DNA of 36,848 bases. Origin: a virus. The notes under the pieces are model-generated. The model did not search any database. It was not told the origin of the DNA and saw only the letters and a program-made list of their open reading frames with translations. Shown in pieces: positions 337-35,363 of the stretch (position 1 is the first letter of the stretch; the number at the start of each line of letters is the position of its first letter). Made by a program: the position numbers and the translations under genes. The stretch lies in IMG/VR virus record IMGVR_UViG_3300044825_001182, positions 1 to 36,848 of that record. One strand, 5' to 3'.

Positions 337-921
337 ATGGAAATGTTCGACTTGAGTCTCGATAACGTCGGGCTCTATCGCCGGCTGCTCTCTGAGTCGG
401 CCGAGCCAGGTTCCGGGCCGCTGCTGATCGCGTCGAAGTCGAACGCGACCGAGGGCGGCCGGGCGATGGCGGTTTTCGCGTTCAACGTGCGAACCGGCGT
501 CGGCCGCGACGTGCTGCGCGTGCAAAAGCCGGCGACGCTCCGCAACCTCGCGTTGATCCGGGCGGCGATCCTCGGCCGTCACGCCGCCGGGTTCGGCGAG
601 TCGCGATCGCTGACGCCGGCCGAGGTCGGATCCGTCGAGACGATGCCGGGCAACGCCGTGCGGTTCGACGATCTGCTACACAACTCCGCGCCCGAGGTTA
701 TGCCGCCGCCGATCGCGATCGTAACGGCGACCGTCACGCCGCCGGCCGGGGGCCGGGGGCCGCGACCGTTCGAGGCGATCCCGTCGGCCGTCGTCGCGTG
801 GGTCGCGCATGATCGCGTTTTGCGCCGGAACGTGCGGGTCGCGAAATCCGTTCCGCTGCTCGCGCTGCTGAATGGTCTCGACACGCTGATCGCCGCGCAC
901 GGCGTCGAGGGGGTTCGATGA
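337..921 (+). CDS. Hypothetical protein upstream of terminase
   Basis: A 194-residue protein of unknown function. Residues 1-60 are mixed and the middle (about 60-110) is helical and basic. Residues near 125-160 carry a stretch rich in Pro and Gly (PPIAIVTATVTPPAGGRGPRP). It overlaps the terminase small-subunit gene by four bases (ATGA at 918-921), which implies translational coupling. One copy of the dispersed 13-base motif lies at 403-415 and is read as EPGS. No export signal or recognised domain was seen. The position directly before terS is often occupied by HNH or DNA-binding proteins, but this protein has no such motif. Confidence 0.7.
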   Translation: MEMFDLSLDNVGLYRRLLSESAEPGSGPLLIASKSNATEGGRAMAVFAFNVRTGVGRDVLRVQKPATLRNLALIRAAILGRHAAGFGESRSLTPAEVGSVETMPGNAVRFDDLLHNSAPEVMPPPIAIVTATVTPPAGGRGPRPFEAIPSAVVAWVAHDRVLRRNVRVAKSVPLLALLNGLDTLIAAHGVEGVR

Positions 922-1493
922 CGCGCCGAGGTCCGAGGGCGAAAGCGAAGTCGATCAAGATTCTCGACGGCTCGAAACGCGAGGCGGCGAAACTCAAGCG
1001 ATCGCGGAAGGGGTCGGCGAACCCGACGCCGAAACCTCGGCCGCCTCGCCGGCTGAACAAAACCCGCAAACCGAAACCGCCGGGGGCGGCCGCCGGCGAC
1101 GACGGCGAGGCGCTGGCGCCGCCGAAGTCGGTCAAAGCCGACTCGATCGCTCGCCGCTATTTCGACTGGCTCGCCGCCCGGCTGATCGCCGCCGGAATCG
1201 GCGAGGCGATCGACCGAACGGTCGTCGAGCATATGGCGTTGGACTACGCCGAGGAGCGCCGGGCCGCCGAACACGTCGCGACCGACGGCGCGGTTCTGAC
1301 GTCGATCAACACCGGCAACGCCTACGTCAACCCGTGGTGGTCAATCATGGTCGCCGCCCGGAAGCGCATCGACTCGCGACTCGATTCGCTCGGGATGACG
1401 CCGAGGGCGCGGCAAACGATGGAATTCGACACGTCGCCGGCCGACGACGCGCCGGATCTGCTGGCGTTCTCGACGAACCGGGGGGCAAGCTGA
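918..1493 (+). CDS. terS: Terminase small subunit, P27-like
   Basis: A 191-residue protein matching the general plan of P27-family small terminase subunits, which bind phage DNA and present it to the large subunit for packaging. It opens with RGPRAKAKSIKILDGSKR, the basic start typical of this family. A long Lys/Arg/Pro-rich tail follows (residues 20-60), then a helical core with WLAARLIAAG, NPWWSIMVAARK and a C-terminal R-x-R-x-x-M segment. The large subunit lies 0.7 kb downstream, separated by two small genes, which supports the call. The enlarged basic N-terminus is a little unusual. The start overlaps the previous stop. Confidence 0.8.
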   Translation: MTRRGPRAKAKSIKILDGSKREAAKLKRSRKGSANPTPKPRPPRRLNKTRKPKPPGAAAGDDGEALAPPKSVKADSIARRYFDWLAARLIAAGIGEAIDRTVVEHMALDYAEERRAAEHVATDGAVLTSINTGNAYVNPWWSIMVAARKRIDSRLDSLGMTPRARQTMEFDTSPADDAPDLLAFSTNRGAS

Positions 1494-1720
1494 TGCCGAC
1501 GACGACCGAGCCAGGTTCCGACGGATTCTATGACGACCTCGATCACGATGCGTTTTGCGGGATCTGCGGACTCGCGATGATGCTCAACGGGGGCTCGGCC
1601 GAGGCGGTCAACGTTTGCCGGATCTGCGCCGCCGACCCGGCGAACGAAGTCGCGTATTATGCGTGCGGACACTGCGACCGATACCTCGATTGCGGCTGCG
1701 ACTCTCCATTCGATGACTGA
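1493..1720 (+). CDS. Small zinc-ribbon protein between terminase genes
   Basis: A 75-residue acidic protein whose ATG (1493) overlaps the terS stop in TGATG. I prefer this to the upstream ATG at 1334, which would lie far inside terS. It has paired cysteines, CGIC near residue 22, CRIC near 42, and a CGHC...CGC group near 58-69, a pattern that would bind one or two zinc ions. A copy of the dispersed 13-base motif occupies 1508-1520. Function is unknown; small zinc-binding proteins in this position may assist packaging or bind nucleic acid, but this is inference. Confidence 0.7.
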   Translation: MPTTTEPGSDGFYDDLDHDAFCGICGLAMMLNGGSAEAVNVCRICAADPANEVAYYACGHCDRYLDCGCDSPFDD

Positions 1721-2156: not shown

Positions 2157-2158
2157 CG

Positions 2159-3898: not shown

Positions 3899-3919
3899 AC
3901 CTCGGTCGGGATTGCACCT

Positions 3920-4150: not shown

Positions 4151-5744
4151 GAACCCGACGCGATCACTCGCCGGCGCCTCGACGTGGGATGATGTTTTCG
4201 ACGGCGCGTCAACGCTCGCCGGCGTGCGGGTCTCTCAGAAACGGGCGCTCGGCTATCCGCCGCTGCTGCGCGGCGTGACGAAAATCACGAACGACGTCGG
4301 CAAGCTGCGCCTACACGTTCGCGAGCGCACGCCCGACGGCGGGGCCGAAAAGGCTCGGCGTCATCCGGCGTGGCCGATCCTCGCGCGCAAGGCGAATCGA
4401 TTCATCACTTCGGGCCGGTTCAAAAAGGCGTTGCAATTCCATGCGCTCTGGCACGGCAACGGCTACGCCGCAATCTCGCGACTCAATAACGGCGACGTCG
4501 CGCCGGCGTCGATGCCGGGCGGCGGCCTCGCGATCCTCGACCCGGCTGAAACGTTTCCGGTTCAAGCGAACGGCGAACTCTGGTATGTGACCTCGATCAA
4601 GCGCCGCGACTCTCGCGGCCGCGTCGCCGACACAACCGAGGTCAAGATTCCGGCCGAGGACATCATTCATATCCGCGGGCTCTCAAGCGACGGGATTTCC
4701 GGCGTCGATATCTTCGATCTGATCCGCGAGGCGCTCGGGATCCCGTTGGCGGCGCGCGAGTACGAAGCCAGGTTCTTTGGGCAGGGGGGCAATCAATCCG
4801 GCGTGCTGATGATTCCGGGGCGGATCCGTAAAGATCGGCAGGAGAAGCTACTCGCCGCGTGGGCGAAGATGACGACCGGGCTCACCAAGGCGCACAAAAT
4901 CGCGTTGATCCAAGAGGGGGCGAAATTCGTTCCGACCTCGACCGACCCGGAAAAGGCGGCGCTGATCGGGGCGCAGGAACTCGAAATCAAAATGGTCGCC
5001 AACATTCTTGGATTGCCGCCGCATATGCTCGGCGACTCGTCTCGAACCGCTTACAACTCGATCGAGGCCGAGAACCGCAATTATCTCGAAAGCTGCCTCG
5101 ACGCTTGGCTCTGCGATTGGGAGGAAGAAACCGCCGACAAGCTGCTGCGCGAATCCGAGATCGAGCGCGACTCGCATTTCATCGAATTCAACCGGGCGCA
5201 ACTGCTGATGATGGACTTCAAAGGCCGTGCCGAGTCGTATCGCGTGTATCGCGAAATCGGCGCGATGGGGGTCAACGACGTCGCACGGGCCGAGGGCTGG
5301 CCGACGATCGGGCCGCCGGGCGACGTGCGACACGTTCCGTCAAATTGGATCCCGTTGACCGAGGCCGGCAAGACGACGGCGACGTCGGCTCGGGTTCACC
5401 GCGAGTTGATCGTCGATCGACTTCAGCGCCTCGCCGAGATCGAGGCGACCGAAATGAAGCGACTCACGGGCTCGGCCGAGGCCGCCCGGCGTGCGGGCGA
5501 ATGGTTCGAGAATCATCGTGGTCGCGTCGAGTCATCGTTGACGCTGCCGGTTCGGGCGGCGCTGGTCGCGGGCGGATCCCGTGACGACGGCGCGGCCGAT
5601 ATTGTCGGCCGGTTCGCCCGGTCATATGTTGCGTCGAGGATTGCCGGCGAGCCGTGGCGCAATCCTGAAACGTTTTTCGCAACCGAGGCGGCCGCGATCG
5701 ACGCCGCCGCCGATGCGTTGCTCAATGGAAAGGCTAAAGCATGA
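4092..5744 (+). CDS. Portal protein, HK97 family
   Basis: A 550-residue portal protein, forming the dodecameric DNA entry channel at one capsid vertex. The start is GTG 4092 (MGLLGRLLGL, the usual amphipathic opening of this family). Family hallmarks visible are RGVTKITNDVGKL, WHGNGYAAI, DIIHIRGLSSDG, AREYEARFFGQGGNQSGVL and GDSSRTAYNSIEAENRNYL. The portal fold ends near residue 400, and about 150 further residues form a helical C-terminal extension rich in Glu and Arg. It overlaps the protease gene by four bases (ATGA). It contains a degenerate copy of the dispersed motif at 4765-4777. Confidence 0.93.
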   Translation: MGLLGRLLGLTTTKLTNSLENPTRSLAGASTWDDVFDGASTLAGVRVSQKRALGYPPLLRGVTKITNDVGKLRLHVRERTPDGGAEKARRHPAWPILARKANRFITSGRFKKALQFHALWHGNGYAAISRLNNGDVAPASMPGGGLAILDPAETFPVQANGELWYVTSIKRRDSRGRVADTTEVKIPAEDIIHIRGLSSDGISGVDIFDLIREALGIPLAAREYEARFFGQGGNQSGVLMIPGRIRKDRQEKLLAAWAKMTTGLTKAHKIALIQEGAKFVPTSTDPEKAALIGAQELEIKMVANILGLPPHMLGDSSRTAYNSIEAENRNYLESCLDAWLCDWEEETADKLLRESEIERDSHFIEFNRAQLLMMDFKGRAESYRVYREIGAMGVNDVARAEGWPTIGPPGDVRHVPSNWIPLTEAGKTTATSARVHRELIVDRLQRLAEIEATEMKRLTGSAEAARRAGEWFENHRGRVESSLTLPVRAALVAGGSRDDGAADIVGRFARSYVASRIAGEPWRNPETFFATEAAAIDAAADALLNGKAKA

Positions 5745-6625
5745 CGGGGCGAGCGCAGAACCGAACGGCCGAGCCGGCGTTGTATCGATTCCGAAACGCG
5801 ACCGAGGAAAACCCGGCGGCCGAGATCGCGATCTATGACGACATCGGGCCGAGTTGGCTCGGGCTGATCGGGGCCGTCGGCGTTCGCCGCGACGTCAACG
5901 CCGCAAAGGCGGCCGGGGCGAAGTCGCTCGACGTGCGGGTCAACTCTGGCGGCGGCGACGTGTTCGAGGGGTTCGCGATCTATGAAACGATCCGCGACGC
6001 CGGGATCCCGACGACGGTTTACATTGACGGAATCGCCGCCTCGATCGCCTCGGTTATCGCAATGGCCGGGTCCGAAATTCGGATCGCCGAGCAAGCTATG
6101 ATGATGATCCATCCGGCGCGGGGGATCGTCGCCGGCGAGGCGAAAGATTTTCGGCGCTACGCCGATCTGCTCGACACGCTCCGCGAGCAAATCCTCGACG
6201 TCTACGCGAAACGACCTCGCGTTGACCGGGCGGCGATGGCGGCGGCCGTCGTCGATGGCGAGGAACTTTGGTTGACCGGCCGCGAGGCGATCGACCGGGG
6301 GCTCGCCGACAAGCTGACCGGCGAGCAAGCCGTCGAGGCGCGCTATTCGGCGACGATGCACGATTTCAAACACGATCCGAATCGGCGCTTGATCGCCGCC
6401 GGGGCCGGGCCGCTGCTGCTGCCGGACGAACGCCGCTCGATCGCTGCCGGCCGCACGCCGCCGCCGGCGACCTCGACCTCGACCTCGACGCCGGCGACGC
6501 CGCCGGCGGGCTCTGCGGCGGCCGGGGGCCAGGTTCCGGGCGACGTCGCCGCCGCCCGGTCGCGGCTGGCGGAAATGGCCGGCTGGTCGCCGCCGGCCGA
6601 GTCGTTCGCCGTGCCGATCGACTGA
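5741..6625 (+). CDS. Prohead protease, ClpP-like (S14)
   Basis: A 294-residue protein whose first 200 residues match ClpP-type head maturation proteases, which cut capsid and scaffold proteins during prohead maturation. Visible motifs are DVRVNSGGGDVFEG (oxyanion glycines), GIAASIASVIAMAG with the likely nucleophile S101, MMMIHPARG with H124, and LTGREAIDRGLADKL near the third catalytic region. The last 90 residues are low complexity (TSTSTSTPATPP) and may be a scaffold-like or linker tail. The start overlaps the portal stop; the capsid gene follows after a 443-base regulatory gap. Confidence 0.92.
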   Translation: MTGRAQNRTAEPALYRFRNATEENPAAEIAIYDDIGPSWLGLIGAVGVRRDVNAAKAAGAKSLDVRVNSGGGDVFEGFAIYETIRDAGIPTTVYIDGIAASIASVIAMAGSEIRIAEQAMMMIHPARGIVAGEAKDFRRYADLLDTLREQILDVYAKRPRVDRAAMAAAVVDGEELWLTGREAIDRGLADKLTGEQAVEARYSATMHDFKHDPNRRLIAAGAGPLLLPDERRSIAAGRTPPPATSTSTSTPATPPAGSAAAGGQVPGDVAAARSRLAEMAGWSPPAESFAVPID

Positions 6626-6893: not shown

Positions 6894-6923
6894 TTGACAC
6901 GCCGGCCGGGGCTTGCGTATCGT
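6894..6923 (+). promoter_or_regulatory. Sigma70-like promoter before capsid gene
   Basis: TTGACA at 6894-6899, an 18-base spacer, then TATCGT at 6918-6923. It points at the structured leader and the capsid gene. The same -35 with an 18-base spacer recurs at 17978 and 24044, which supports it. A strong separate capsid promoter would suit a late structural protein needed in high copy. Confidence 0.6.
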
Positions 6924-6929
6924 TTTGAA

Positions 6930-8569: not shown

Positions 8570-8956
8570 ATGGCGACAAATCCAGCAAAGCAAACCGGCA
8601 AAACGCCGGCGACCGCCGAGCCAGGTTCCGGCGAACTGCATTCGGTCAAGCTGAAAACCGGGCGATCGAACGGCCGAGTCACTGACAATCCGGGCGACGT
8701 CATCGACGTCGATATCCGCGAGGCGTGGCGATTGAACGAATCCGGTCAAGCCGTGTTCTGCGATACGAAAGGCGATCGACTGCCGCGCGAGAAGATCCCG
8801 CCGAGGCCGGCGAAGATTTGGCCGGAAGGATCGCCCGAGGGGGTTCTCGCCGGCGAGTGCAAGCCGCCCGAGAAAAAGAAACCGGCCGCCGGCGCATCGC
8901 CGAGGCCGGGCGACGCCGCCGCCGGCGGCGATGACGACGACTCACTCGACGACTGA
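8570..8956 (+). CDS. Hypothetical virion-region protein
   Basis: A 128-residue hydrophilic protein starting at ATG 8570 behind CAATCCGAGG. The core (residues 22-75) contains HSVKLKTGRSNGRVTDNPGD and DVDIREAWRLNESGQA, which looks like a small beta-rich domain. The C-terminus is Lys/Pro/Ala-rich and ends in DDDDSLDD. A copy of the 13-base motif lies at 8618-8630 (EPGS). Between capsid and connector genes, head-decoration or connector-assisting proteins are common, but no family is recognised. It could equally be a small regulatory or scaffold protein. Confidence 0.7.
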   Translation: MATNPAKQTGKTPATAEPGSGELHSVKLKTGRSNGRVTDNPGDVIDVDIREAWRLNESGQAVFCDTKGDRLPREKIPPRPAKIWPEGSPEGVLAGECKPPEKKKPAAGASPRPGDAAAGGDDDDSLDD

Positions 8957-9636: not shown

Positions 9637-9977
9637 CGCCGGTCGAACCGATCAAGTTGCAAGGGCTGAAACCCGAGAACGCCGGGGCCGATGGCGTCGT
9701 CGATCCGTCGGTCGCCGACAACTGGCGTGACGACTGGTCGGGTCTCGGCGAGGTCGTCGAGGTCGGCGGGGCCGAGATCGACGTCGGCGAGCAAGTCGCG
9801 TCGAACATAACTCACATGATCCGCGTTCACGGCGACTCAATCACGCGCGTCGCGACGACGAAACAACGGATCCGATGGACCGACGGGGCCGAGATCCGGT
9901 TTCTCGAAATCACTCGCCGCCGGCGAACCTGCAACGCGCCGGAAATCATTACGTTCGATTGCGTCGAGGCGACATGA
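9633..9977 (+). CDS. Head closure protein, head-tail joining
   Basis: A 114-residue protein beginning at ATG 9633, overlapping the connector stop. Its length, position and beta-rich makeup (NITHMIRVHGDSITRVATTK, RIRWTDGAEIRFLEI) match head closure or joining proteins of the SPP1 gp16/HK97 class, which plug the connector and bind the tail. The segment with W, D and R in IRWTDG and the ending RRRTCNAPEIITFDCVEA are typical of this family. It overlaps the following gp10-like gene by four bases. The family call rests mainly on order and fold pattern. Confidence 0.75.
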   Translation: MTPVEPIKLQGLKPENAGADGVVDPSVADNWRDDWSGLGEVVEVGGAEIDVGEQVASNITHMIRVHGDSITRVATTKQRIRWTDGAEIRFLEITRRRRTCNAPEIITFDCVEAT

Positions 9978-10408
9978 GCCAGGTTCGGCCGACGATCACG
10001 TTCACGGGGATCAAGCAACTCGACGACAAGTTGCAACGGATCGAGAAGCGCGACGGCCGACGCATCGCACGCAAGGCGATGCGTCGAGGTCTCTCGGTTC
10101 TGCAAAAGGCGCTCAAGGTCGCCGCGCCCGTCGGGCCGAAGAAACCGACCCGTCGAGGCCGGCCGCTGCGAAAGGCGATCGGGCAACGGTTCGGGAAGTC
10201 GCGGACGAACGACGCGATCCTCTCGGTCGTCGGCGTCAACGTGAAGTTGCGGAAGGATCAACAAGCGCCGCACGGGGCGGCCGCGACGCTCCGCACGTCG
10301 CGAGGTCCGGGAAATGCGTTCGTCGAAACAACGGTTCGAGGCAATCTCGGCGCTGCGATGAACGTCATCGAATCGACCGTCGCCGAGGAAATCAACGCGC
10401 TCCGATGA
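9974..10408 (+). CDS. Tail completion protein, HK97 gp10-like
   Basis: A 144-residue basic protein resembling HK97 gp10-type proteins, which sit at the head-tail interface. It shows the family's start pattern, TFTGIKQLDDKLQRIEKRDG, then RIARKAMRRGLSVLQKALKVAAPV, a middle with many basic residues, and RGPGNAFVETTVRGNLGAAM near the end. The ATG overlaps the previous stop, and its second to fifth codons overlie a 13-base motif copy (9976-9988, last two bases changed). The next gene overlaps by four bases. Confidence 0.85.
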   Translation: MSQVRPTITFTGIKQLDDKLQRIEKRDGRRIARKAMRRGLSVLQKALKVAAPVGPKKPTRRGRPLRKAIGQRFGKSRTNDAILSVVGVNVKLRKDQQAPHGAAATLRTSRGPGNAFVETTVRGNLGAAMNVIESTVAEEINALR

Positions 10409-12251: not shown

Positions 12252-12270
12252 CGGCGAGCCAGGTTCCGAA

Positions 12271-21080: not shown

Positions 21081-22028
21081 ATGGCGGATCAACACCGGCT
21101 CGACTTCAACCGAGCCGCGAGGGATTTCGAGTTGCGCCGCCTCGGCGTCAAACGCCGCGTGCGGGATCTGCTGTTCGCTCTGGTGGGCCTCGGCGACCGT
21201 CGGGCGGCCGTTGACCGGGCCGCCGGCGTCGAGGCGTCTCGGGCCGTGCTGGCGGCCTCGGCGGGGCTCTCCGTCGCGACCGTGCGCCGGGCGCTGGCCG
21301 AGGCCGTGTCGCTCGGGCTGGTCGAGGTCGAGCCGGCCGCCGGCGAGGCGAACCGATACCGGGTCAATCTCGACGTGGCGCTGATGCTCGCCGCCGGCGG
21401 TTTCAACTCGACGGCGCACGGATCCGCGGCGAATCGAATCGACGGCGCGGCGCCGGCTCGATCTGACGTCGAGTCGAGGTCGGCTCAACCCGGCTCAACC
21501 CGGCTCAACCCGGCTCAACCCGGCTCACTTTCGGCCGGGGCGCAACCTGTTGCGGGGCAAGGGAAAAGCCGAGGGGACCGCCGGGGCGACCCGGCTCACG
21601 TCGCTATAAATAAACCCGACTCTACCGTCGGGGGGTATATTACGCCCGCTCGACCGACGTTGCTCGACGGTCGAGTTATTCCAAAAGCGCGACCGTGGCG
21701 CGTGGGTCCGTCGTCGCTCTCGACGATCGAAGGCGTCGCACGGCTCTACCTCGCTGCGCTCGCGAAAGGCTGGCTCACCGACTCCGACGCGACTCGGGCG
21801 CAATTCCTCTGCGTCGCCGTTCACGTTCGCGAGACGGAGCGCAACACGCCGGGCAAGCTGCTGACGTGGCTGATCCGGCACAACTTCGACCTCGACGTCG
21901 CTCACCGATTCGCCGAGCGCGCTCGGCAAGCTGCCTCGCGGTTTAATCTCGCGATCGACTCTCTCGTTTCCGAGGCCGGCCGCGTGGCTGGTCGTCAACC
22001 TGCGCTCGATTTCTCAGAAGGTAAGTAA
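21081..22028 (+). CDS. Replication initiator-like protein, origin within gene
   Basis: A 315-residue protein that I call an initiator by architecture. The start ATG 21081 follows GGAAGGAACC. Residues about 20-100 hold a winged-helix domain (RVRDLLFALVGLGDR, then LAASAGLSVATVRRALAEAV and SLGLVEVEPAAGEANRYRVN), as in phage O-like initiators. Residues 133-150 overlie the tandem iterons and residues 175-188 overlie an AT-rich stretch. The C-terminus is helical (HVRETERNTPGKLLTWLIRH) and could recruit a helicase loader. Because the iterons repeat every 10 bases, the peptide there cycles through all frames, which is odd for a protein but usual for an embedded origin. Confidence 0.7.
   Translation: MADQHRLDFNRAARDFELRRLGVKRRVRDLLFALVGLGDRRAAVDRAAGVEASRAVLAASAGLSVATVRRALAEAVSLGLVEVEPAAGEANRYRVNLDVALMLAAGGFNSTAHGSAANRIDGAAPARSDVESRSAQPGSTRLNPAQPGSLSAGAQPVAGQGKSRGDRRGDPAHVAINKPDSTVGGYITPARPTLLDGRVIPKARPWRVGPSSLSTIEGVARLYLAALAKGWLTDSDATRAQFLCVAVHVRETERNTPGKLLTWLIRHNFDLDVAHRFAERARQAASRFNLAIDSLVSEAGRVAGRQPALDFSEGK
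21481..21528 (+). repeat. Tandem 10-base iterons
   Basis: CGGCTCAACC repeated four times (21481-21520), followed by a partial fifth (CGGCTCAC, 21521-21528). A related copy CCGGCTCAC is at 21591-21599. A period of 10 gives one face of the helix. The period is not a multiple of three even though it lies in a gene, so the DNA sequence, not the peptide, is being kept. Confidence 0.9.
21481..21645 (+). other. Candidate replication origin (iterons plus AT-rich)
   Basis: Iterons at 21481-21528 and 21591-21599 are followed directly by TATAAATAAA (21605-21614) and GGTATATTACG (21634-21644), one of the few AT-rich stretches in this GC-rich window. This is the layout of the lambda origin inside gene O: iterons bound by the initiator, then a DNA-unwinding element. 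Confidence 0.6.
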
Positions 22029-22030: not shown

Positions 22031-23506
22031 ATGAACGACCGTCTCGATAGGAGATCTGCGGCGTCGATCGCCGCTGTCTCAAAACACTCTGAACACGTCG
22101 CCGGTCGGCTCGCCGAGTCGATCGCCGACTCGAACCGACGGTTCGACGCTCTCTCGAAACACTCCGAACACGTCGCCGGCCGCCTCGCCGAGTCGATCGG
22201 CGAGGCGAACCGACGGTTCGATTCACTGGAGCAACGAACGGCGTCGCTCAAACACAACCTCGCCGAGTTGCGGCAGCAACTCGACGGGCTCGACGGGCTC
22301 GTTTGTGCGGGCGACCGGATGAACACGGCAACGGCGGCGGCGGTCGATTCGCTGGTCGAGCGATCCGACGACCTGCTCGATTTCGCGATGCTGATCGCCG
22401 GCGCTCTGGTGCAACTCTGGTCGCGCATGCCGGGCGGCGAGGTTCCGCCGCCGGCCGGAACGCCGCTCGCCGAGGTCGTTCACGTTCTGGCGGATCCGGC
22501 GTCGAGATTTGGGGCGGCGGCGAGCGCGGATCCGACGGCCGAGGCCGAGCCAGGTTCCGCCGGCGAGGCGACCGACGACGACGTTCGCCTCGAACCGACG
22601 GGCCGGGTCGTCACGCATCGCGACGGCCGGCCGCTGGCGCCGGCGATCGTCGAGGCGTTCGTCGAGCCGTCGATCGAGGATCAACTAAAAGCGACGCTCG
22701 ACGCCTACGTCGCCGACGGGGGCGACGCCGCCGATCTGTATCGGAAATTCGACGGGTCGCCGCTGCCGAGCGAAAGCCGGCCGCCGACCGATCCGCCGGT
22801 CGAGAACTGGCACAAGGTCGAGGCACTGCCGGCCGCGTGGCTCGACGGTCTCGACGCCGGCCGCGTGAAAGCGATCGCCGACGCTTTCAACCTGTCGGCC
22901 GGGATGGGGGCGGCGTTCGTCGTTCTGATCGTCGATGCGATGATCCGCCGGGCCGAGGCGTTCGCCCGTCGCAAGTATCAATCCGAGCCGCACGTCGCCG
23001 GGGCCGTGCTGACGCCGGCCGAGGTTCGAGGCTGGCGGTCGATCGCCGAGGCGCTGCTCGACGGCAAGCCGATCGACGCGACGAAACTCGGCGGCGACCT
23101 CGACCTCGACGCCGCGCTCGAATGCGATGGCGTGGCAACGATCCGCGACGCCGCCGGCGATGTCGTCGTCGAGGTTCCGCTCGACCCGAACGCGCCGGCG
23201 TGCGATCGCTGCGCCTCGATCCGGGCATTGACCGAGGCGCAAGCCGTCGAGGGGATCGATTACGTTCGCGAGACGCCGGCCGAGGATCCTCGGATCCTGA
23301 TACCGGCGTCGGTCGTCGAGGAAATCCATCGGCTCGCCGGCCGCGAGGCGCAACCGAAGTTGCGCGACGCCGACGGCCGGCTGCGGCGAATCGTCAACCT
23401 GATCGACCGATACAAATCGGCCGACGGCGAGATTCAATCGCTCGACTGGCGGATCGTCGCGAGGATCCGCAAAGTCGCGAGCGCCGTCGATCCGGCGGCG
23501 ACGTGA
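22031..23506 (+). CDS. Coiled-coil protein with 25-residue repeats
   Basis: A 491-residue protein starting two bases after the initiator gene, so probably co-expressed. Residues 17-66 are two copies of a 25-residue unit (SKHSEHVAGRLAESI...NRRFDAL), followed by a long helix (RTASLKHNLAELRQQLDGLD); together a coiled coil. The middle has helical and disordered parts. Residues about 270-300 hold an Ala-rich helix (NLSAGMGAAFVVLIVDAMIR), and later a Cys pair CDRC (near 400). Its role is unknown; in phage replication modules such proteins may bridge initiator and helicase, but this is inference. It carries a 13-base motif copy at 22547-22559. Confidence 0.65.
   Translation: MNDRLDRRSAASIAAVSKHSEHVAGRLAESIADSNRRFDALSKHSEHVAGRLAESIGEANRRFDSLEQRTASLKHNLAELRQQLDGLDGLVCAGDRMNTATAAAVDSLVERSDDLLDFAMLIAGALVQLWSRMPGGEVPPPAGTPLAEVVHVLADPASRFGAAASADPTAEAEPGSAGEATDDDVRLEPTGRVVTHRDGRPLAPAIVEAFVEPSIEDQLKATLDAYVADGGDAADLYRKFDGSPLPSESRPPTDPPVENWHKVEALPAAWLDGLDAGRVKAIADAFNLSAGMGAAFVVLIVDAMIRRAEAFARRKYQSEPHVAGAVLTPAEVRGWRSIAEALLDGKPIDATKLGGDLDLDAALECDGVATIRDAAGDVVVEVPLDPNAPACDRCASIRALTEAQAVEGIDYVRETPAEDPRILIPASVVEEIHRLAGREAQPKLRDADGRLRRIVNLIDRYKSADGEIQSLDWRIVARIRKVASAVDPAAT
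22079..22228 (+). repeat. Two 75-base direct repeats in coding sequence
   Basis: Copies at 22079-22153 and 22154-22228 differ at several positions and keep the reading frame (25 codons). They encode the SKHSEHVAGRLAES repeat and look like a recent duplication extending a coiled coil. Confidence 0.8.
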
Positions 23507-23575: not shown

Positions 23576-24070
23576 ATGGCGTCGAAACTCGAAATTCATT
23601 TCGGTCGGCTCTGGCAATTGCTCGGGCCAGGTTCCGCAATTCCCTACGCGACCGAGGTTCCGCTCGCGGCCGCCGGCGTGGCGACCGCTCGGCTCTGGCG
23701 GTTCGATGTCGCGTTCGCCGATGAACGGGTCGCGGTCGAAATCGAGGGCGGGATCTTCAAGGGCGGCCGACATCAACGGATCGACGGCTACACGAACGAT
23801 TGTGACAAGTACAACGCCGCTCAATGCGACGGCTGGCTCGTTCTGCGGTTCTGCTCAATCCATTTCGACCGGCGGCCGTTCGAGGTCGTCGAGACGGTTC
23901 TCGTCGCGCTGGCGAACCGTGGCAACGCTCGGGCGCTCGCGGCGCTGCCGGAATTCCGCGCCCGGATCCCGCCTCGGCCGGCGGCGATCGCCGGCAAAAT
24001 CCATGCGGCCGCCGGCGTCAAAATCACGACGACCCGAATTCGGTTGACAAAAGGCCGGCGACGCCGCTAG
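23576..24070 (+). CDS. PD-(D/E)XK-type endonuclease
   Basis: A 164-residue nuclease of the Vsr/DUF559-like kind often seen in phages. The catalytic region reads LWRFDVAFADERVAVEIEGG, with D44 and E55/E57 as likely metal ligands, and GRHQRIDGYTNDCDKYNAAQ, a conserved helix of this class; then GWLVLRF, the final strand. ATG 23576 follows GAGGGATCA. The basic C-terminus ends RLTKGRRRR and its last codons contain the next promoter. It could repair or cut DNA (for example during recombination, packaging or host DNA attack). A 13-base motif copy lies at 23624-23636. Confidence 0.8.
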   Translation: MASKLEIHFGRLWQLLGPGSAIPYATEVPLAAAGVATARLWRFDVAFADERVAVEIEGGIFKGGRHQRIDGYTNDCDKYNAAQCDGWLVLRFCSIHFDRRPFEVVETVLVALANRGNARALAALPEFRARIPPRPAAIAGKIHAAAGVKITTTRIRLTKGRRRR

Positions 24071-24123: not shown

Positions 24124-24453
24124 ATGTCACGCTCTGATCGATGGACGGAAGCCGAAACCGCTGCTCTCGTCATGCTGTACAACGCGATGCTGCGTCGTCA
24201 TCGCGAGGGAACGCTCGGCCGGGGGCCGGGCAAGGTTACAAAGGCGACGATGATTCGCGATTTCGGTCGCGACTTCGCGCCGACCCGTTCACGTCAGTCG
24301 ATCGAATTCAAGTTGCGGAACGTCTCGGCCGCCCGCGTGGCTCTCGGCCTCGCGTGGCTGCCGGGTTTCGTTCCGGCGACGAACGCCTCGAACGACATCG
24401 CCGCCGCGATCGCTCCGACGGCCGCCGGCGACGTGAACGGGGGGGCGGCCTGA
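24124..24453 (+). CDS. DNA-binding-type protein, SIEFK motif
   Basis: A 109-residue protein from ATG 24124 behind CACGAAAGG; the open frame upstream is rejected. It begins RWTEAETAALVMLYNAMLRR, a Myb/SANT-like first helix, and continues RSRQSIEFKLRNVSAARVAL and GLAWLPGFVPATNA. This R-S-x-x-S-I-E-F-K-x-x-N-x-S-A pattern is typical of a domain often found before HNH or McrA/McrB-type restriction modules. Here it stands alone. The stop overlaps the start of the methyltransferase-like gene in TGATG, so the two are coupled. It may guide or modulate that enzyme (inference). Confidence 0.75.
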   Translation: MSRSDRWTEAETAALVMLYNAMLRRHREGTLGRGPGKVTKATMIRDFGRDFAPTRSRQSIEFKLRNVSAARVALGLAWLPGFVPATNASNDIAAAIAPTAAGDVNGGAA

Positions 24454-25859: not shown

Positions 25860-26681
25860 ATGTACTACGGCAATCGCTGCGCGATCACGCTCTCGAACGG
25901 CGTCGAGGTCGTCGAGGTTCTGAGACGATTTCCCGACGCGAGGGTCGTCGGCACGGCCGAGTTATACGGCGGCGGTCAACGTTGGATTGTTGAATTTGAG
26001 CGCGCGACGCCGGCCGAGCCAGGTTCCGGCCGACTCTCGACGCCGGCCGATGAATTGCCGGACTGTCTGCGCGAATACGACCGGCAAGGCGGCCGAGGCG
26101 TTCTCGCCGTGACGTGGCAACGGCCGACCGACGGCCGGTCGTTCCTCGCGGCGACGTCGGAACGGCCGGCGGCGTTCGAGGACATGCGCGAGGTCGCTCG
26201 CGAGGCGATCCGCAACCTACGGTCGAACGTCACGATCTGGCGGCGGACGCGAGCCGGCGACCCGTGGGCCGAACTGGCGATCGAGGCGGGCGCCGGCGTC
26301 GTCGAGGCCGAGGCCGCCGGCGACGACGAACCGCCGGCGGCGACCTCGGCGCTCGACTCGACCGTTTGCCTCGCGGTCACTGCGCTCGACGAACGGGTCG
26401 GCCGGAACGTCGTCGTCGCCGTTTGGCGTGACGACGTGGCCGAGGCCGCGTCGCGGAAGTGGGCGATTCAATTCGCCGACCGGCTCGCGTCTGCCGGCCG
26501 GCGATCGGTCGAGGTTTGGGATCGTCGCGGCGATGGCTGGTCGCTCGATTTCTGTCCGGTCGGCGACGTCGCGGCGGTCGAGGCCGAGCAATGCTCGCAC
26601 GGGGCGCACGCGACCGACTGCGGGCGCTGCAACGGGGTGCCGGGATTGACCGACGTCGAGGATCCGCGGATCCTGCGATAA
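25860..26681 (+). CDS. Hypothetical protein with C-terminal Cys/His cluster
   Basis: A 273-residue protein from ATG 25860 behind CCTGAAAGGCTCTCTCA. It begins MYYGNRCAITLSNGVEVVEV, and the C-terminus has EQCSHGAHATDCGRC, a possible zinc-binding cluster of three Cys and two His. It has repeated Trp residues (VTWQRPTDGRSF, VTIWRRTRAGDPWAELA, VVAVWRDDVAE, WAIQFADRLA). The middle third looks like two alpha/beta lobes. Family unknown. A 13-base motif copy lies at 26016-26028 (EPGS). Confidence 0.65.
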   Translation: MYYGNRCAITLSNGVEVVEVLRRFPDARVVGTAELYGGGQRWIVEFERATPAEPGSGRLSTPADELPDCLREYDRQGGRGVLAVTWQRPTDGRSFLAATSERPAAFEDMREVAREAIRNLRSNVTIWRRTRAGDPWAELAIEAGAGVVEAEAAGDDEPPAATSALDSTVCLAVTALDERVGRNVVVAVWRDDVAEAASRKWAIQFADRLASAGRRSVEVWDRRGDGWSLDFCPVGDVAAVEAEQCSHGAHATDCGRCNGVPGLTDVEDPRILR

Positions 26682-27332: not shown

Positions 27333-28050
27333 AATTCGAGCGCCCGACAATCCCGTTCCGGCGCTCGCGCTGCTGCCGATCACGTACAAGCCGGCCGATG
27401 GCGAGCGCGTGGCGTGGGACGTTGACACGTCTCGCGTCGAGATTCCGAAAGTAAACGCCGCCGCGTCGCGGGCCGATGTCGAACGACTGGCCGCGACTCT
27501 CGGCGGCGAGGTCGTTTGGTCGAGCGACGAAGCCGACGCCGTTCTACTGTTCATCGAAATTCCGAACGGCGTCGTTCTCGCGAACTATCCGGGCGACTGG
27601 TCGATCGCGCTCGCCGTCTCGAACGCTGACGGGCTCGACATCGATCAACGGGTCATCACGCGAGCCAGGATCGGCGGAACGAACCCGCCGCCGCCGCCGC
27701 CGGTCGATCCGCCGCCGCCGGTCGATCCGCCGCCGGGGCCGCTCGACCTCGACTTGAGCGACGACGCGCGAGGCTGGCTCGGCACGGTTGACGCCGCCGG
27801 CCGCGACCGGGCGAAAGACGTCGCGCGCACGTTGAAGGAACTCGGGGGGCAGGCGACCGAGGTCGGCTCGATCGGCGGCCTCGACGCGCTGTTGACGTTC
27901 GGCCTCGCCGCCGCGTTCGGCGATGACGCGAAACACTGGCAACGGTTCGCCGAGTCGGCCGACGCTGCTCTCGAACGCCTCAAAGCCGGCGGCGTGACGG
28001 TCGCGCAATACGGCTCGGCGCTGGCGTCGATCGGGAAGGGGATCGAATGA
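27271..28050 (+). CDS. Exported proline-rich hypothetical protein
   Basis: A 259-residue protein from ATG 27271 behind CAACCGAAAGGCGATCCG, inside the end of the previous gene. The N-terminus looks like a short signal peptide (MTMTLQTLALLAALGAPPVA). A domain of about 110 residues follows, then a proline-rich hinge (NPPPPPPVDPPPPVDPPPG, about 137-155) and a helical C-terminal domain (GRDRAKDVARTLKELGGQ...). The linker suggests crossing a narrow envelope layer. It overlaps the protease gene by four bases. A 13-base variant (GAGCCAGGATCGG) lies at 27662-27674. Confidence 0.65.
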   Translation: MTMTLQTLALLAALGAPPVAEIRAPDNPVPALALLPITYKPADGERVAWDVDTSRVEIPKVNAAASRADVERLAATLGGEVVWSSDEADAVLLFIEIPNGVVLANYPGDWSIALAVSNADGLDIDQRVITRARIGGTNPPPPPPVDPPPPVDPPPGPLDLDLSDDARGWLGTVDAAGRDRAKDVARTLKELGGQATEVGSIGGLDALLTFGLAAAFGDDAKHWQRFAESADAALERLKAGGVTVAQYGSALASIGKGIE

Positions 28051-29057: not shown

Positions 29058-29063
29058 GGCGCT

Positions 29064-30248
29064 ATGGAAACCGCAGAAGCGAAAAAGGTCACGCTGTCGC
29101 CGATCGAGGCGGTCGTCGAGGGGGCCGTTCGTCGCGTCGAGGGAACGCCGCCGGGGGCGGCGATCAATTTCGATTTGATCCTCGGTCTCGTTACGACGCT
29201 GTTCCAATTCATCCGGGATTGCGGCGTCGGCGGCGCACGCTCGGCGATCCGCTCGGGCGGGATCGAGGCAAAGGTCGCCGCATACCGGGCGGTTCTCGAA
29301 ACCGATTATCCGGGCAACCGGGCGGCGCTGGCTCTGGCGATCGCTGCCGACGGGGCGAAGTCGAGCGACGCCGACCTCGACGCGACGATCGCCTCGGCGA
29401 TGTCGTTCTCTCGAACGTCGCTCGCGTTGATGCTGGCGCTGTCGCTGCTGTCGCTGCCGGCGGTCGCCGGGCCGTTCGCCTCGGCGATCGGCGTCGGGCC
29501 GATGTCGATGGCGATCGCGGCGGCCGAGGGCTCGAACGGCGGCGCGACGCCGACGGTCGAGGTCGAGCGCGCTCTCGAACTGCTCAAGCTGACCGACGGG
29601 GCGGCCGTTACGGTTTACGACATCGGGGCCGGCGACGGCCGGGTCGTGCGCGAGGCGGCCGCGTGCTACGGCGTCAAAGCCGTCGGCGTCGAGGTCGATC
29701 ACGATCGAGCCGTCGAGGCGACAAAGCTGACGGCCGACGCCGGGCTCTCGGATCTGGTCACGATCGTCGAGGGCGACGCCCGCGACCTCGACATCAAAGC
29801 CGAGGGTAACGTCGCATACGTTCATCTTTGGCCGGAAATGCTCGACGACCTGCGGCCGTTGCTCGAACGGTTCGATCGCGTCGTTTCGTATGGTCATCCG
29901 ATCGACGGTCTCAAGATGACGTCACACCGGGGGCTGTTCGTGTACGAACGGCCGAGCCAGGTTCCGCCGGCGGCCGTCGTTTCTGATCCGCCGAAAGCTG
30001 AAACGAAACCGGCCGCGAAGCCGGCGACGCCGGCGGCCGTCGAAACGCTGGTCGAGGTCTCGACGTGGAATCGACCCGCGTATCGAGTTGACGGGAACGG
30101 CCGGCGAGGCGTCGTCTATCCGGGCGACGGCCGGCTCTACATCGGCCGTCATTGCAACGCCTCGAATTGCTCAATGTGCAATTGGATCGCGAACGCTCTC
30201 GGCTGCGCGAACGGCAACTGCTATGCGTGCCGCCGGGGCGGCAACTGA
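29064..30248 (+). CDS. Fusion protein with internal signal peptide and SAM-methyltransferase
   Basis: A 394-residue protein. Residues 1-110 are an unknown domain with a hydrophobic stretch (FDLILGLVTTLFQFI). Residues 113-137 form a classic signal peptide (MSFSRTSLALMLALSLLSLP then AVAG), an internal ATG at 29400. Residues 160-285 are a class I SAM-methyltransferase: VYDIGAGDGRVVREAA (motif I), AVGVEVDHD, then VTIVEGDARD. The C-terminus is Cys-rich (HCNASNCSMCNW, CANGNCYACRRGG). Exported methyltransferase-like proteins of this type are common in planctomycetes. Either the fusion is real or the internal start makes a second, secreted product; no good ribosome-binding site is seen there. Confidence 0.7.
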   Translation: METAEAKKVTLSPIEAVVEGAVRRVEGTPPGAAINFDLILGLVTTLFQFIRDCGVGGARSAIRSGGIEAKVAAYRAVLETDYPGNRAALALAIAADGAKSSDADLDATIASAMSFSRTSLALMLALSLLSLPAVAGPFASAIGVGPMSMAIAAAEGSNGGATPTVEVERALELLKLTDGAAVTVYDIGAGDGRVVREAAACYGVKAVGVEVDHDRAVEATKLTADAGLSDLVTIVEGDARDLDIKAEGNVAYVHLWPEMLDDLRPLLERFDRVVSYGHPIDGLKMTSHRGLFVYERPSQVPPAAVVSDPPKAETKPAAKPATPAAVETLVEVSTWNRPAYRVDGNGRRGVVYPGDGRLYIGRHCNASNCSMCNWIANALGCANGNCYACRRGGN

Positions 30249-30882: not shown

Positions 30883-33186
30883 ATGCCGACGAAACGCTAC
30901 CTCAAGAAAACGCAAACCGAGGCCGGAACGACCGGGACGCCCGGCACGATCGGCGCGACGGTCGATCTTTCGACGACGCAAGGAACCGCCGATTCGCTCG
31001 GCTCCGGCAACCTCGCCGGCTCGACGAACTACGACACCGTTCCGGCCGTGTCGTTCACGATGACGGTCGGCGCGGGGGTCATCGCCGACGGCACACAAAA
31101 TTACGGCGTCAGCTATCAAGTAACGGCGTCGCAAGATGAGTTGTTCGTTAAACCTCGGCTGCGTCGCGTGAATTCTTCCGGCGTCACGCAAGCGACGTCG
31201 GGATTCGGAACCGAGCGCGCCGCGAACGGCGGCGACATCGTTGGAACGTGGACCGACACGATCAGTTTCAACGCCGGGACGTGGGCCGCCGGCGACCGGC
31301 TCGTTTTCGATCTGCATGGATACGACGACGGGCCGGGGCCGCAAAACTTTACGCTCGCGGTCAACGATGCCGATTCGTGGGTCGAGACGGTTGACGGCTC
31401 GGGCTCTCCGGCGACGCTGACGCCGCCGAACGCGACGGCGACCGGCTCGGTCATCGCGCCGACGGTCGCGGCCTCGATCACGCTGACGCCGCCGAACGCG
31501 ACGGGCTCGGGTTCGGTCATCGCGCCGACGATCGTTCCGGTCGCCGTGCTGACGCCGCCGACGCTGACGCCGGCCGCCTCGGTCATCGCGCCGACTGCGG
31601 TCGGCGGGGCGATCACGATCACGCCGCCGACGATCCTCGCCGCGAGCCAGGTTCTAACGATCGGGCAAACGGTCATTCCGCCGAACGCGACGGCGGCGGC
31701 CTCGGCGATCGCTCCCTCGGTCGTCGCGGTCGTCACGCTGACGCCGCCGACGATCACCGCAACGGGGGCGGTTCTCTCGCCGAGCGCCGGCGCGCCGATC
31801 GTTCTGACGCCGCCGACGATCAACTCGATTTCGACCGTTCTCGCGCCGCCGGCAAACCGGCGACATGACGTCGGCACGATCACGGCGACCGGCTCGGTCG
31901 TCGCGCCGGATCTGCTGGCCGGCAATGTGCTGGCCGTGCCGATCATCGACGAAAACGGGACGGGGGCGGATCTGGTCGCCGTCGTCATCGCGCCGACCGT
32001 CTCGACGACGCCGATTTCGGTCACGCCGCCGAACGTGACGGCGACGGGCTCGGTCATCGCGCCGACGCTCCGCGCTGTCGTTCGGCCGACCGTGCCGACG
32101 CTGACGGTCTCGGCCGCCGTCACGCCGCCCGCACAATCGGCGAACGTCTCGATCGCCGTTCCGTCGTTCACTCGGGCCGCCTCGGTCACGCCGCCGACGC
32201 CGACGTCGCCGATGACGCTGACGCCGCCGACGCTCACCGGCTCGGCCTCGGCGATCGCTCCCTCGATCCGCTGGTCGCTGACGCCGCCGGCGATCGCCGC
32301 CTCGACCTCGGTCACGCCGCCGACGCTCTCCGTCGTCGCTGGACTGCCGCCCGGCGTCGCGACGGCTGTCGGGTCGGTTCTGCCGCCGGCGCTCGTCTGC
32401 GGGGCAATCACGCTGCCGGACGAACTGATTTCGGCCGCCGCCTCGGTCACGCCGCCGGCGGCCGTCGCAACCGTCTCGCGGATCCCGCCGACGCTCACCG
32501 GCTCGGCCTCGGCGATCCCGCCGACGCTCGCCGTCTCGGCCGTGCCGCCCGTGCCGACGGCCGCCGCCTCGGCCTCGGTCATCGCGCCGACGGTCGCCTC
32601 GGGGGCGATCACGGTCGCCGTGGGATCCGTCGCCGCGGGGGCCGCCTCGGTCATTCCGCCGGCCGAGGCGCACGTCGCGACGCTCTCGCCGCCGAACGTG
32701 ACGGCCGCCGGCGTCGTCGTCGAGCCGCCGATCGACCGGGGCCAGGTTCCGGGGGTCGCGGTCGCCTCGGCCTCGGCGATCGCTCCCTCGGTCGTCGTCT
32801 CGATCACGCTGACGCCGCCGGCGATCGGCGCCTCGGCCTCGGTCGTCGCGCCGACCTCGACGAACGTGAACACGCTGACGCCGCCGACGCTGACGCCGGC
32901 GGCCTCGGTCACGCCGCCGGCGGTCGTGCGCTCGGTCTCGATCGCGCCGCCGGCGATCGCCGCCGCGACCTCGATTCTCTCGCCGACGCCGGCCGGGGGC
33001 TCGGCCTCGGTCTCGATTCCGGCGCTGACGGCCGCCGCCTCGATCCTCGCGGCGTCGCTACTCGCCGCCGTTACACTGACGCCGCCGGCGATCGAGGTCG
33101 CCGCCGTGGCTCTGCTGACGCCGCCGATCGTCATCGACCGGGCGACCGACGGGCCGGGCTGGACTTTTCACGAACATGAGGTTTGA
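30883..33186 (+). CDS. Large repeat-rich fibre or surface protein
   Basis: A 767-residue protein whose first 170 residues are a beta-rich head domain (VSYQVTASQDELFVKPRL, DRLVFDLHGYDDGPGPQNF). From residue 175 it consists of about 20-residue repeats with the scheme LTPP-x(4-6)-SAS(V/A)IAPT-x, about 25 copies. Similar repeats are common in phage structural proteins; they are beta-rich and would form an elongated rod. The C-terminus is GPGWTFHEHEV. The gene also stays open on the reverse strand because of base composition. Two 13-base motif copies lie at 31644-31656 and 32739-32751. A tail-fibre or head-surface role is likely. Confidence 0.8.
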   Translation: MPTKRYLKKTQTEAGTTGTPGTIGATVDLSTTQGTADSLGSGNLAGSTNYDTVPAVSFTMTVGAGVIADGTQNYGVSYQVTASQDELFVKPRLRRVNSSGVTQATSGFGTERAANGGDIVGTWTDTISFNAGTWAAGDRLVFDLHGYDDGPGPQNFTLAVNDADSWVETVDGSGSPATLTPPNATATGSVIAPTVAASITLTPPNATGSGSVIAPTIVPVAVLTPPTLTPAASVIAPTAVGGAITITPPTILAASQVLTIGQTVIPPNATAAASAIAPSVVAVVTLTPPTITATGAVLSPSAGAPIVLTPPTINSISTVLAPPANRRHDVGTITATGSVVAPDLLAGNVLAVPIIDENGTGADLVAVVIAPTVSTTPISVTPPNVTATGSVIAPTLRAVVRPTVPTLTVSAAVTPPAQSANVSIAVPSFTRAASVTPPTPTSPMTLTPPTLTGSASAIAPSIRWSLTPPAIAASTSVTPPTLSVVAGLPPGVATAVGSVLPPALVCGAITLPDELISAAASVTPPAAVATVSRIPPTLTGSASAIPPTLAVSAVPPVPTAAASASVIAPTVASGAITVAVGSVAAGAASVIPPAEAHVATLSPPNVTAAGVVVEPPIDRGQVPGVAVASASAIAPSVVVSITLTPPAIGASASVVAPTSTNVNTLTPPTLTPAASVTPPAVVRSVSIAPPAIAAATSILSPTPAGGSASVSIPALTAAASILAASLLAAVTLTPPAIEVAAVALLTPPIVIDRATDGPGWTFHEHEV

Positions 33187-33189
33187 CGC

Positions 33190-34563
33190 ATGGCCGATAT
33201 CTTTCTGCGATCGACCGACGGGAACGACGCGAACGCCGGCACGGCGAAGGAAGCGCCGAAAGACACGATGCAAGCCGCGATCACTGCGGCCGGGGCCGGC
33301 GGCCGCGTTTTCGTTTCCGACCTGCATGACGAAATCGTCACGCCGGCCGCTAACTTTCTGTGGTCGATTCCGGGAACGGTCGGCGCGCCGACGCGAATCT
33401 ATTGCGTTCCAGACTGGGGGGCGGCGACCGGATCGACTGCGCCGACCGCATACTCGACCGGCGCTCGGTTCTCGGTCGATGGCACGGTCAACAATCTCAA
33501 TCTGCAATGGCCGACCGCATATTTCCACTTCTACGGGATCACGTTTCGGGGCAACAATTTCGGCGGGAACGCGAACGGGTTTTCGCTCGGGATCACGACG
33601 AACGGACACGGATACCTGTTATTCGAGGACTGCGATTTCGTCACGCGCACGGGAACGGGGCCGCTGTTCGGGATCGGGTCGTCGCTCAACAACGGCTCGG
33701 CGCAGACGGTTCACCTGATTAACTGCCGTTGGAACTTCAACGCGACCGCCGGACAAATCCAATTCTCGACGGCAAATGCGATCATCGAAGATTGCGCGAC
33801 GAACCCGTTCACGGGATCAATCCCGACGACGGCGTTTCAGTCGGTTTCCGGCGTCGGCCGGATCGTCATTCGCAACGTCGATCTTTCCTCGGTCTCGGGA
33901 ACGCTGATTTCGTTCGGCTCGAACGATCGACCCGCGCCCGAAATTCTGTTCGAGGCGTGCAAGCTGCACGCCTCGGCGACGAAATACTCGACGACGAACC
34001 TCAACGGGCCGGGCGGCCGCTCAGTCAAATTCCTGCGATGCGACTCGGGCGACACGAATTACAAGTTGATCCGGGTCGATCAGCGCGGAACGTTTCAGGA
34101 TGAAACGACGATCGTTCGCTCGGGCGGCGCGAGCGACGGAACGACGCCGTTCGCGTGGAAAATGGTCACTGTGGCGAACGTCTCGAACCTGTATCCGATG
34201 CACGGCGAGCCAATCCCGATTTGGATCGACTCGACGGGCTCGGCAAAAACGATCACGATCGAGGTCGTCACCGATAACGTGACGTTGACCGACGCCGAGG
34301 CGTGGATCGAGGTCACGTACCTCGGCACGTCGGGCAATCCGCTCGGGGCTCGCGTCTCGGATCGGATCGCCGGGTTTTTGGCGACGCCGGCGAATCAATC
34401 AACGTCGTCGGTCACTTGGACGACGACCGGCCTCGGAACGCCGGTCAAGCAAAAGCTAGAAGCGACGTTCACGCCTCAAGAGAAGGGGCCGGCGATTGTG
34501 ACGGTTCATCTCGGCCGCGCCTCGACGACGCTTTACTACTGTCCGAAAGCAACTGTCGCATGA
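33190..34563 (+). CDS. Beta-helix-like tail-spike candidate
   Basis: A 457-residue protein starting three bases after the repeat protein. The N-terminal 300 residues follow a right-handed beta-helix pattern typical of pectate-lyase-like domains: STDGNDANAGTAKEAPKDTM, AGGRVFVSDLHDEIV, YFHFYGITFRGNNFGG, LFEDCDFVTRTG, HLINCRWNFNAT, RIVIRNVDLSSVSG. Residues about 320-450 form a beta-sandwich-like end (IPIWIDSTGSAKTITIEVVT). Such proteins bind or degrade surface polysaccharide. No obvious catalytic triad was identified. It overlaps the next gene by four bases. Confidence 0.78.
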   Translation: MADIFLRSTDGNDANAGTAKEAPKDTMQAAITAAGAGGRVFVSDLHDEIVTPAANFLWSIPGTVGAPTRIYCVPDWGAATGSTAPTAYSTGARFSVDGTVNNLNLQWPTAYFHFYGITFRGNNFGGNANGFSLGITTNGHGYLLFEDCDFVTRTGTGPLFGIGSSLNNGSAQTVHLINCRWNFNATAGQIQFSTANAIIEDCATNPFTGSIPTTAFQSVSGVGRIVIRNVDLSSVSGTLISFGSNDRPAPEILFEACKLHASATKYSTTNLNGPGGRSVKFLRCDSGDTNYKLIRVDQRGTFQDETTIVRSGGASDGTTPFAWKMVTVANVSNLYPMHGEPIPIWIDSTGSAKTITIEVVTDNVTLTDAEAWIEVTYLGTSGNPLGARVSDRIAGFLATPANQSTSSVTWTTTGLGTPVKQKLEATFTPQEKGPAIVTVHLGRASTTLYYCPKATVA

Positions 34564-35363
34564 GCCGAGAATTCGCGATCGACGGGTTCACGTTGACCGA
34601 CGCCGACGATCGTCAATTCGCGATCGACGGGTTTACGCTGTTCGGCGACGCCTCGGCGGCCGTCACGCTGACGCCGCCGAACGTGACGGGCTCGGCCTCG
34701 GCGATCGCTCCCTCGATCGCCGCCGGCGTCGCCTCGATCGCGCCGCCGGCCGCGACGGGATCCTCGACGGTCGTCGCTCCCTCGATCACGCTCGGCGCTG
34801 TCACGCTGACGCCGCCGGCGATCGCCGTCTCGACTTCGGTCGTCGAGCCAGGTTCCGCCGTCGCTCAAACGATCACGCCGCCGACGCTCACCGGCTCGGC
34901 CTCGGCCGTCGAGCCGACGGTTTCGTTCGGCGGCGACCCGCAAACGGTCGCGCCGCCGGCGATCGCCGCCTCGACGTGGGTTTTCGGGCCGGTCTCGACC
35001 GATCGACCCGAGGCGAGCTATTTTCCGCGCTGGCAATTCAAACCGGGGGCAACGATGACGGGGATCGCTCGCGAGGTTCGGCGGAAACGGGCAAACGAAT
35101 CGATCACTCGCGCAATCGACTTTACAAATCGAATGGTCGCCGGCGACTCGATCGCGTCTCTCGACGGGCTCTCGGTCTCGCCGACGACCGTTCCGCCGCT
35201 GGTCGTCACGTCGCCGACCGTGGCGGCCGACGGCGCTCGCGTTTTGCTCGATATTGCCGGCGGGCTCGACGGCGTTCTATACTCTGTCGCCGTCGCCGTG
35301 CGAACGACGCCGGGGCTCGAACGCCGGGAAGGCGTGGCAAAGTTGCACGTTGATGACGGTTGA
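34560..35363 (+). CDS. Second protein with LTPP/APT repeats
   Basis: A 267-residue protein, ATG 34560 overlapping the previous stop. It opens with two copies of REFAIDGFTL / RQFAIDGFTL and then has about seven repeats of the kind found in the protein at 30883 (AVTLTPPNVTGSASAIAPSI). The C-terminal half (from about 150) is unique: PRWQFKPGATMTGIAREVRR, then LVVTSPTVAADGARVLLDI, an Ig-like or beta region. It probably forms part of the same fibre or adhesion complex. A 13-base copy lies at 34845-34857 (EPGS). Confidence 0.72.
   Translation: MSREFAIDGFTLTDADDRQFAIDGFTLFGDASAAVTLTPPNVTGSASAIAPSIAAGVASIAPPAATGSSTVVAPSITLGAVTLTPPAIAVSTSVVEPGSAVAQTITPPTLTGSASAVEPTVSFGGDPQTVAPPAIAASTWVFGPVSTDRPEASYFPRWQFKPGATMTGIAREVRRKRANESITRAIDFTNRMVAGDSIASLDGLSVSPTTVPPLVVTSPTVAADGARVLLDIAGGLDGVLYSVAVAVRTTPGLERREGVAKLHVDDG

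Follow-up and report, generated by a model that had tools for sequence, protein, structure and literature searches.

A polar, evenly spaced 13-base motif recurs within the genes of a tailed phage genome

We describe a 13-base motif that occurs 19 times in the viral genome record IMGVR_UViG_3300044825_001182, always on the + strand, nearly always inside genes and at strikingly even intervals. The window analyzed here is the entire record, 36,848 bases without an end repeat. The motif is a real and striking element, and selection on it acts on the nucleic acid, with the motif overriding protein sequence. It is probably required by an enzyme that is direction-specific in its reading of DNA or RNA. 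The reading that we rank first, tentatively and with well under even confidence, is that a polar phage enzyme, most probably a nickase, recognizes the copies.

Ten of the 19 sites carry the exact sequence GAGCCAGGTTCCG; the other nine have one to three changes, which are almost all at the edges, and each retains CCAGG. The consensus is RRGCCAGGTTC, followed mostly by CG. Seven positions are invariant in all sites (CCAGG, T10 and C11), G3 and T9 are each found in 18, positions 1 and 2 are always purines, and no conservation was seen in the sequences flanking the 19 sites. On the + strand there are 17 copies of GCCAGGTTC, compared to 0.23 expected from base composition, and 18 copies of CCAGGTTC; neither word occurs on the − strand. 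The full motif has no − strand match with zero or one mismatch and a single match with two (11001). The selection-free rule of taking every CCAGG in the genome yields exactly the same 19 sites, all on the + strand, so there was no cherry-picking of sites. Places such as 5327 and 7069, which have at most three mismatches but no CCAGG, were left out of the count. Although the motif is nearly palindromic (GAGCC A GGTTC), its asymmetric pair and its orientation never flip, so its polarity is meaningful. Part of the one-strandedness is general, since many words are missing from one strand of this unidirectional genome. An earlier note on this DNA had reported 19 copies, all on the + strand, in three reading frames and once between genes, with a core expected well under once by chance; the copies were recovered as it described them, and no comparable − strand number stands against them.

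Called genes take up 92% of the record, without exception on the + strand, and the sites fall irrespective of gene boundaries, with 18 of the 19 inside open reading frames (ORFs): eight in frame 0, three in frame 1 and seven in frame 2. In frame 0, exact copies encode EPGS at 403..415 (GAGCCAGGTTCCG, gene 337-921), 1508..1520, 8618..8630, 20522..20534, 22547..22559, 26016..26028 and 34845..34857, and a variant at 23624..23636 (GGGCCAGGTTCCG) encodes GPGS. Site 1508 was counted as coding on the basis of its position within a 75-codon ORF (1493-1720) that follows the small terminase gene. The frame 1 sites are at 4765..4777 (AAGCCAGGTTCTT, EARFF, in the portal gene), 15812..15824 (AAGCCAGGTTCGC, KARFA) and 27662..27674 (GAGCCAGGATCGG, ARIG). 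Frame 2 gives SQVP at two exact copies (18312..18324 and 29954..29966), GQVP at two copies of GGGCCAGGTTCCG (6526..6538, in gene 5741-6625 between the portal and capsid genes, and 32739..32751), SQV at 9976..9988 (GAGCCAGGTTCGG, overlapping the likely start codon ATG at 9974) and 31644..31656 (GAGCCAGGTTCTA), and IQV at 14066..14078 (GATCCAGGTTCTA), in the tape measure gene. The one site between genes, 12256..12268, is an exact copy in the intergenic stretch 12252-12330.

Genes contain 12 copies of AGCCAGGTTC, compared to a mean of 0.025 and a maximum of 1 in 200 codon-preserving synonymous shuffles, and a mean of 0.72 and a maximum of 3 when the shuffles also kept the base after each codon. 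In a motif-agnostic word scan AGCCAGGTTC was the top 9-mer of the genome (~10^-30); applied to controls, the same scan recovered the nick sites that are proven in Pseudomonas phage tf and, in mycobacteriophage D29, the stoperators, at ~10^-16. All EPGS (7 of 7), SQV (4 of 4) and QVP (4 of 4) peptides of the proteome are motif-encoded, and 8 of the 19 CCA codons in genes fall in motifs. At its motif the portal protein reads EYEARFF, compared to EYGSMFF and DYGSNFF in two relatives. The enrichment over shuffled genes, the use of three frames and the motif-encoded peptides therefore establish that selection acts on the nucleic acid, as the earlier note had proposed, and they rule out a peptide-level repeat.

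Other sources of the pattern were considered and rejected. An assembly or adaptor artifact is ruled out by the occurrence of the motif in three frames with frame-appropriate variants and by reading frames that continue across the sites. CCAGGTTC resembles the 5' half of a tRNA T-arm, but mimicry of this arm is ruled out, as there is no tRNA and no Rfam match. One-mismatch decoys are not avoided (8 observed compared to 5-6 expected), and the purity of CCAGG arises because CCA and CAG are generally scarce and CCWGG is avoided. Nor is extreme strand asymmetry of the genome the cause: its 4-mer asymmetry of 0.25 is high but lies within the range of its relatives (median 0.19, several at 0.23-0.27).

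The avoidance of CCWGG could itself be taken as the explanation, with the 19 sites as leftovers of restriction, at distances that keep a two-site enzyme such as EcoRII from acting on them. Consistent with this, CCTGG is absent from the genome compared to 24-73 copies expected, every spacing is greater than 1 kb, and Type IIE enzymes require several sites (PMC4081073). However, pressure on CCWGG cannot yield ten identical 13-mers, a fixed polarity, or EPGS and SQV peptides, and GGCCC and CGTCC are equally absent. The positive enrichment of the full motif already disfavors such a by-product, to which we give very little credence. Avoided words are a wider feature of these genes: beyond codon and next-base usage, GTCGAC is found 0 times compared to 54 expected and CCGCGG 5 times compared to 44, and CTCGAG, TTCGAA and CCTGG (0 compared to 24 expected in genes) are also avoided, a pattern that looks like restriction-site avoidance. 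Four 5-mers, GGCCC, AGTTC, CGTCC and GCCCC, are missing from the + strand only.

The gaps between sites range from 1,077 to 3,257 bases, with a mean of about 1.94 kb and a coefficient of variation (CV) of 0.285 on the linear record or 0.279 if it is circular. These values agree with the interval list of the earlier note and with its claim of evenness beyond random placement: none of 200,000 random placements was as even or had so large a minimum gap. The maximum gap is also small (p = 7.5e-5, random placement, circular). Strict periodicity was not found when the intervals were compared to shuffled ones (p = 0.60). The CV falls as variants are added, from 0.49 for the 10 exact sites to 0.37 when all 17 GCCAGGTTC sites are taken and 0.28 with the full set of 19. 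For example, the variant site 14066 halves a 3,556-base gap (12256-15812), and 27662 divides a 3,938-base gap (26016-29954). The filling of gaps by weaker variants argues that the variant copies function. The overall pattern is what would be expected from selection for coverage, in which each site might serve 1-2 kb and redundant near neighbors are lost.

The motif appears to be private to this phage. A complete IMG/VR scan for CCGAGCCAGGTTCCGS returned 20 matches, all single, and no repeated element; a broader scan for CGAGCCAGGTTCCG reached at least 116 stretches, with one full match per stretch among the matches listed. Searches for close relatives via TerL, portal, capsid and methyltransferase found only distant capsid relatives. 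In 86 of these (0.94 Mb in all; 31-44% identity), there is no copy of GAGCCAGGTTCCG, and the frequency of GCCAGGTTC is 0.04 per genome length. No other phage with the same repeated motif was found among the IMG/VR matches listed or in the 86 capsid relatives, the relatives held no dispersed, strand-locked intragenic word of comparable strength, and no related prophage was found in scans of genome contigs. One capsid relative (IMG/VR 3300037851_000065) carries oriented TTGGAACACGAATGACGCGAAAGGACGCGAAGG-like repeats at 2090-17196, about 2-3 kb apart. These lie mostly in gene gaps, unlike the intragenic motif described here, and the strand asymmetry of that genome is very strong (GGGG at 16.6 per kb compared to CCCC at 0.6 per kb).

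The nearest known phenomenon, missing from the analogues named in the earlier note, is the strand-specific nick sites of tf (TACT/RTGMC), phiKMV-like phages and T5. The tf-type sites share with the motif a short, asymmetric, one-strand consensus that is dispersed, mostly intragenic and private to a phage group. In tf, 14 nick sites are spread over 46 kb, and all 14 share one strand regardless of how the genes run. By analogy, the 19 RRGCCAGGTTC(CG) copies would be recognition sites for one protein or machine that reads in one direction. A phage-specific, strand-specific endonuclease may nick the + strand, or its complement, at each of them, as in tf, phiKMV and T5, so that virion or concatemer DNA would bear one single-strand break per ~1-3 kb. 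If each nick served ~1-2 kb, for example by relieving twist during packaging or injection, even spacing would follow, and extra sites inside an already served stretch would bring no benefit and could decay. We infer, rather than observe, the single reader, its sense of direction and its service distance.

Nickase sites are favored by the 19:0 polarity, the indifference to gene boundaries, the override of protein sequence, the privacy of the motif, the presence of nuclease candidates and the lack of recognized lysogeny genes. Among the ORFs scanned by PHROG and other family matching, there was no match to integrase, repressor, polymerase, recombinase, exonuclease or Gam families, and neither lysogeny genes nor a divergent lysogeny module was recognized. 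We also count in favor of nicking that predicted RNA accessibility at the sites does not differ from that of the motif at random positions (p = 0.13). Each phage group has its own nick consensus, and the function of strand-specific nicks in phage DNA is still not known (PMC3517423). The motif matches neither published nick consensus, TACTRTGMC or CGACNNNNNCCTACTCCGG; since such consensuses are group-specific, the mismatch leaves room for a new group of nick sites.

Four encoded proteins, all on the + strand, are candidate readers. The first is an HNH endonuclease (35367..35732; PHROG 2323, 1.6e-12), which lies near the record end, adjoins the packaging genes and may be the nickase. The second is a small PHROG 503 protein of unknown function (23576..24070) with a marginal DUF559 nuclease-like match. 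A winged helix-turn-helix (HTH), O-like replication initiator candidate (21081..22028) and the helical "SIEFK" protein (24124..24453), a candidate DNA-binding protein, could also have this role. The gene of the initiator candidate contains four tandem 10-base repeats (GAGCCGGGTT) on the − strand at 21484-21526, which are possible initiator binding sites. The SIEFK protein matches residues 1-90 of the PADLOC candidate PDC-S36 (E 2e-15) and looks like a free-standing form of its N-terminal domain.

Several points weigh against nickase sites. The HNH protein can presumably be explained more simply, as a factor in the packaging of HK97-type phages. The DUF559 match of the PHROG 503 protein is below cut-off, and its structure model (mean predicted local distance difference test score 36) was too poor and was not used. 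All genes are co-directional, so DNA and RNA readings are not separable. The precedent also leaves the even spacing unexplained: the proven tf sites are uneven (CV 0.83, gaps 721-9129), whereas the motif, at which nicking is a proposal, exceeds them in length and density (1 per 1.9 kb) and has even spacing. phiKMV is unusable as a spacing control, with only three sites of its nick consensus, which adjoin or overlap annotated phage promoters.

Among the polar sites that occur genome-wide in phages, stoperators have been studied best. An asymmetric DNA-binding protein acting at the motif as at stoperators could stop or modulate transcription in one direction. The resemblance to the stoperators of the cluster A mycobacteriophages L5, D29 and TipsytheTRex is clear in size, copy number and orientation: those are 13 bases, asymmetric, oriented with transcription and present in ~25 copies (PMC9283540), compared to 19 sites here, all on the sense strand. 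This genome also encodes the HTH and helical SIEFK proteins as possible binders. However, stoperators serve a lysogenic repressor and lie in promoters or short intergenic gaps, where they are clustered (D29, used as a control, has a CV of 1.18 and a minimum gap of 59), whereas only 1 of the 19 motif sites is intergenic. The ORFs scanned gave no recognizable integrase, repressor or divergent lysogeny module, and the single winged-HTH protein resembles a replication initiator. We find a transcriptional roadblock improbable. The earlier note had named stoperators, Chi, KOPS and antiterminator RNA as analogues, and none of these is established; its stoperator analogue fails on location, and no lysogeny module was recognized to go with it. 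The note had also described known analogues as usually intergenic or irregular, which holds for both controls, D29 (mostly in gaps) and tf.

Like the motif, Chi is polar, intragenic and without fixed relation to genes. A Chi-like signal would act when a host enzyme of the RecBCD or AddAB type enters the free end of cut concatemers, switching it from destroying to recombining, and a site every ~2 kb would limit losses in a phage without its own Gam or Red system. A genome-wide fixed orientation is what a unique entry end demands, as for lambda cos and Chi, and the coverage is even and indifferent to genes; no recombinase, exonuclease or Gam was found among PHROG matches of the ORFs scanned. Chi, however, is a shorter word of host genomes (~5-8 bases, compared to 7 invariant and ~11 constrained positions here), and even spacing at such density in a phage is not known for it. 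A host signal should also recur in the host's other phages, but no other IMG/VR contig was found with the repeats. On balance a Chi-like role seems unlikely, if worth weighing.

Alternatively, the motif may act in the transcript, as a repeated antitermination or pause signal or as an RNA cleavage or protein-loading site. It is always on the sense strand of a fully unidirectional genome, at a spacing of about a few genes, and 6 of the 19 follow a gene start by no more than 70 bases, compared to 1.8 expected (p = 0.007, uncorrected). In contrast, the unconserved flanks, the lack of an Rfam match and the accessibility like that of random positions speak against an RNA signal, and one site per transcript normally suffices for processive antitermination. 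We hold this, too, to be improbable.

The motif could instead mark DNA for a packaging motor, a segregation or compaction protein, or lagging-strand initiation, with a service distance of ~2 kb. Its polarity and its gaps, bounded both ways (1.08-3.26 kb), would suit such a marker. However, no primase, helicase or partition gene was clearly recognized among the ORFs scanned with PHROGs; we consider this role quite doubtful. KOPS and DNA uptake sequences are, like the motif, over-represented dispersed words, but KOPS have a GGGNAGGG-like consensus that RRGCCAGGTTC does not match. DNA uptake sequences show no orientation bias (PMC1939737), compared to 19:0 here.

We know of no described phage signal that unites polarity, intragenic placement and even coverage. 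A real possibility, if a somewhat less than even one, is that the motif constitutes a polar "mile-marker" code, an 11-base word placed every ~2 kb by selection that reshapes proteins, with spacing set by the reach of a direction-sensing reader. The even spacing means that spacing itself can be under selection and points to a machine with a reach of ~2 kb, and the nucleic-acid signal is strong enough to dictate short peptides at eighteen coding sites, including one in the portal protein.

By gene content the virus is an HK97-type tailed phage, with genes for an HNH endonuclease, a phage metallopeptidase, small and large terminase, portal and major capsid. It further encodes a connector, a tape measure protein, tail proteins, the winged-HTH O-like replication protein, a DNA methyltransferase and others. 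The HNH and metallopeptidase genes lie at the right end and the terminase genes at the left end, which suggests that the genome is close to complete and that its ends lie near the packaging site. A methyltransferase domain (29064-30248) resembles an archaeal protein-lysine methyltransferase and Mad2 of the MADS defense system, and it has a Cys-rich C-terminus. The proteins encoded at 30883-33186 and 34560-35363 are built from LTPP..A-type repeat units, which are the source of recurring CTGACGCCGCC words.

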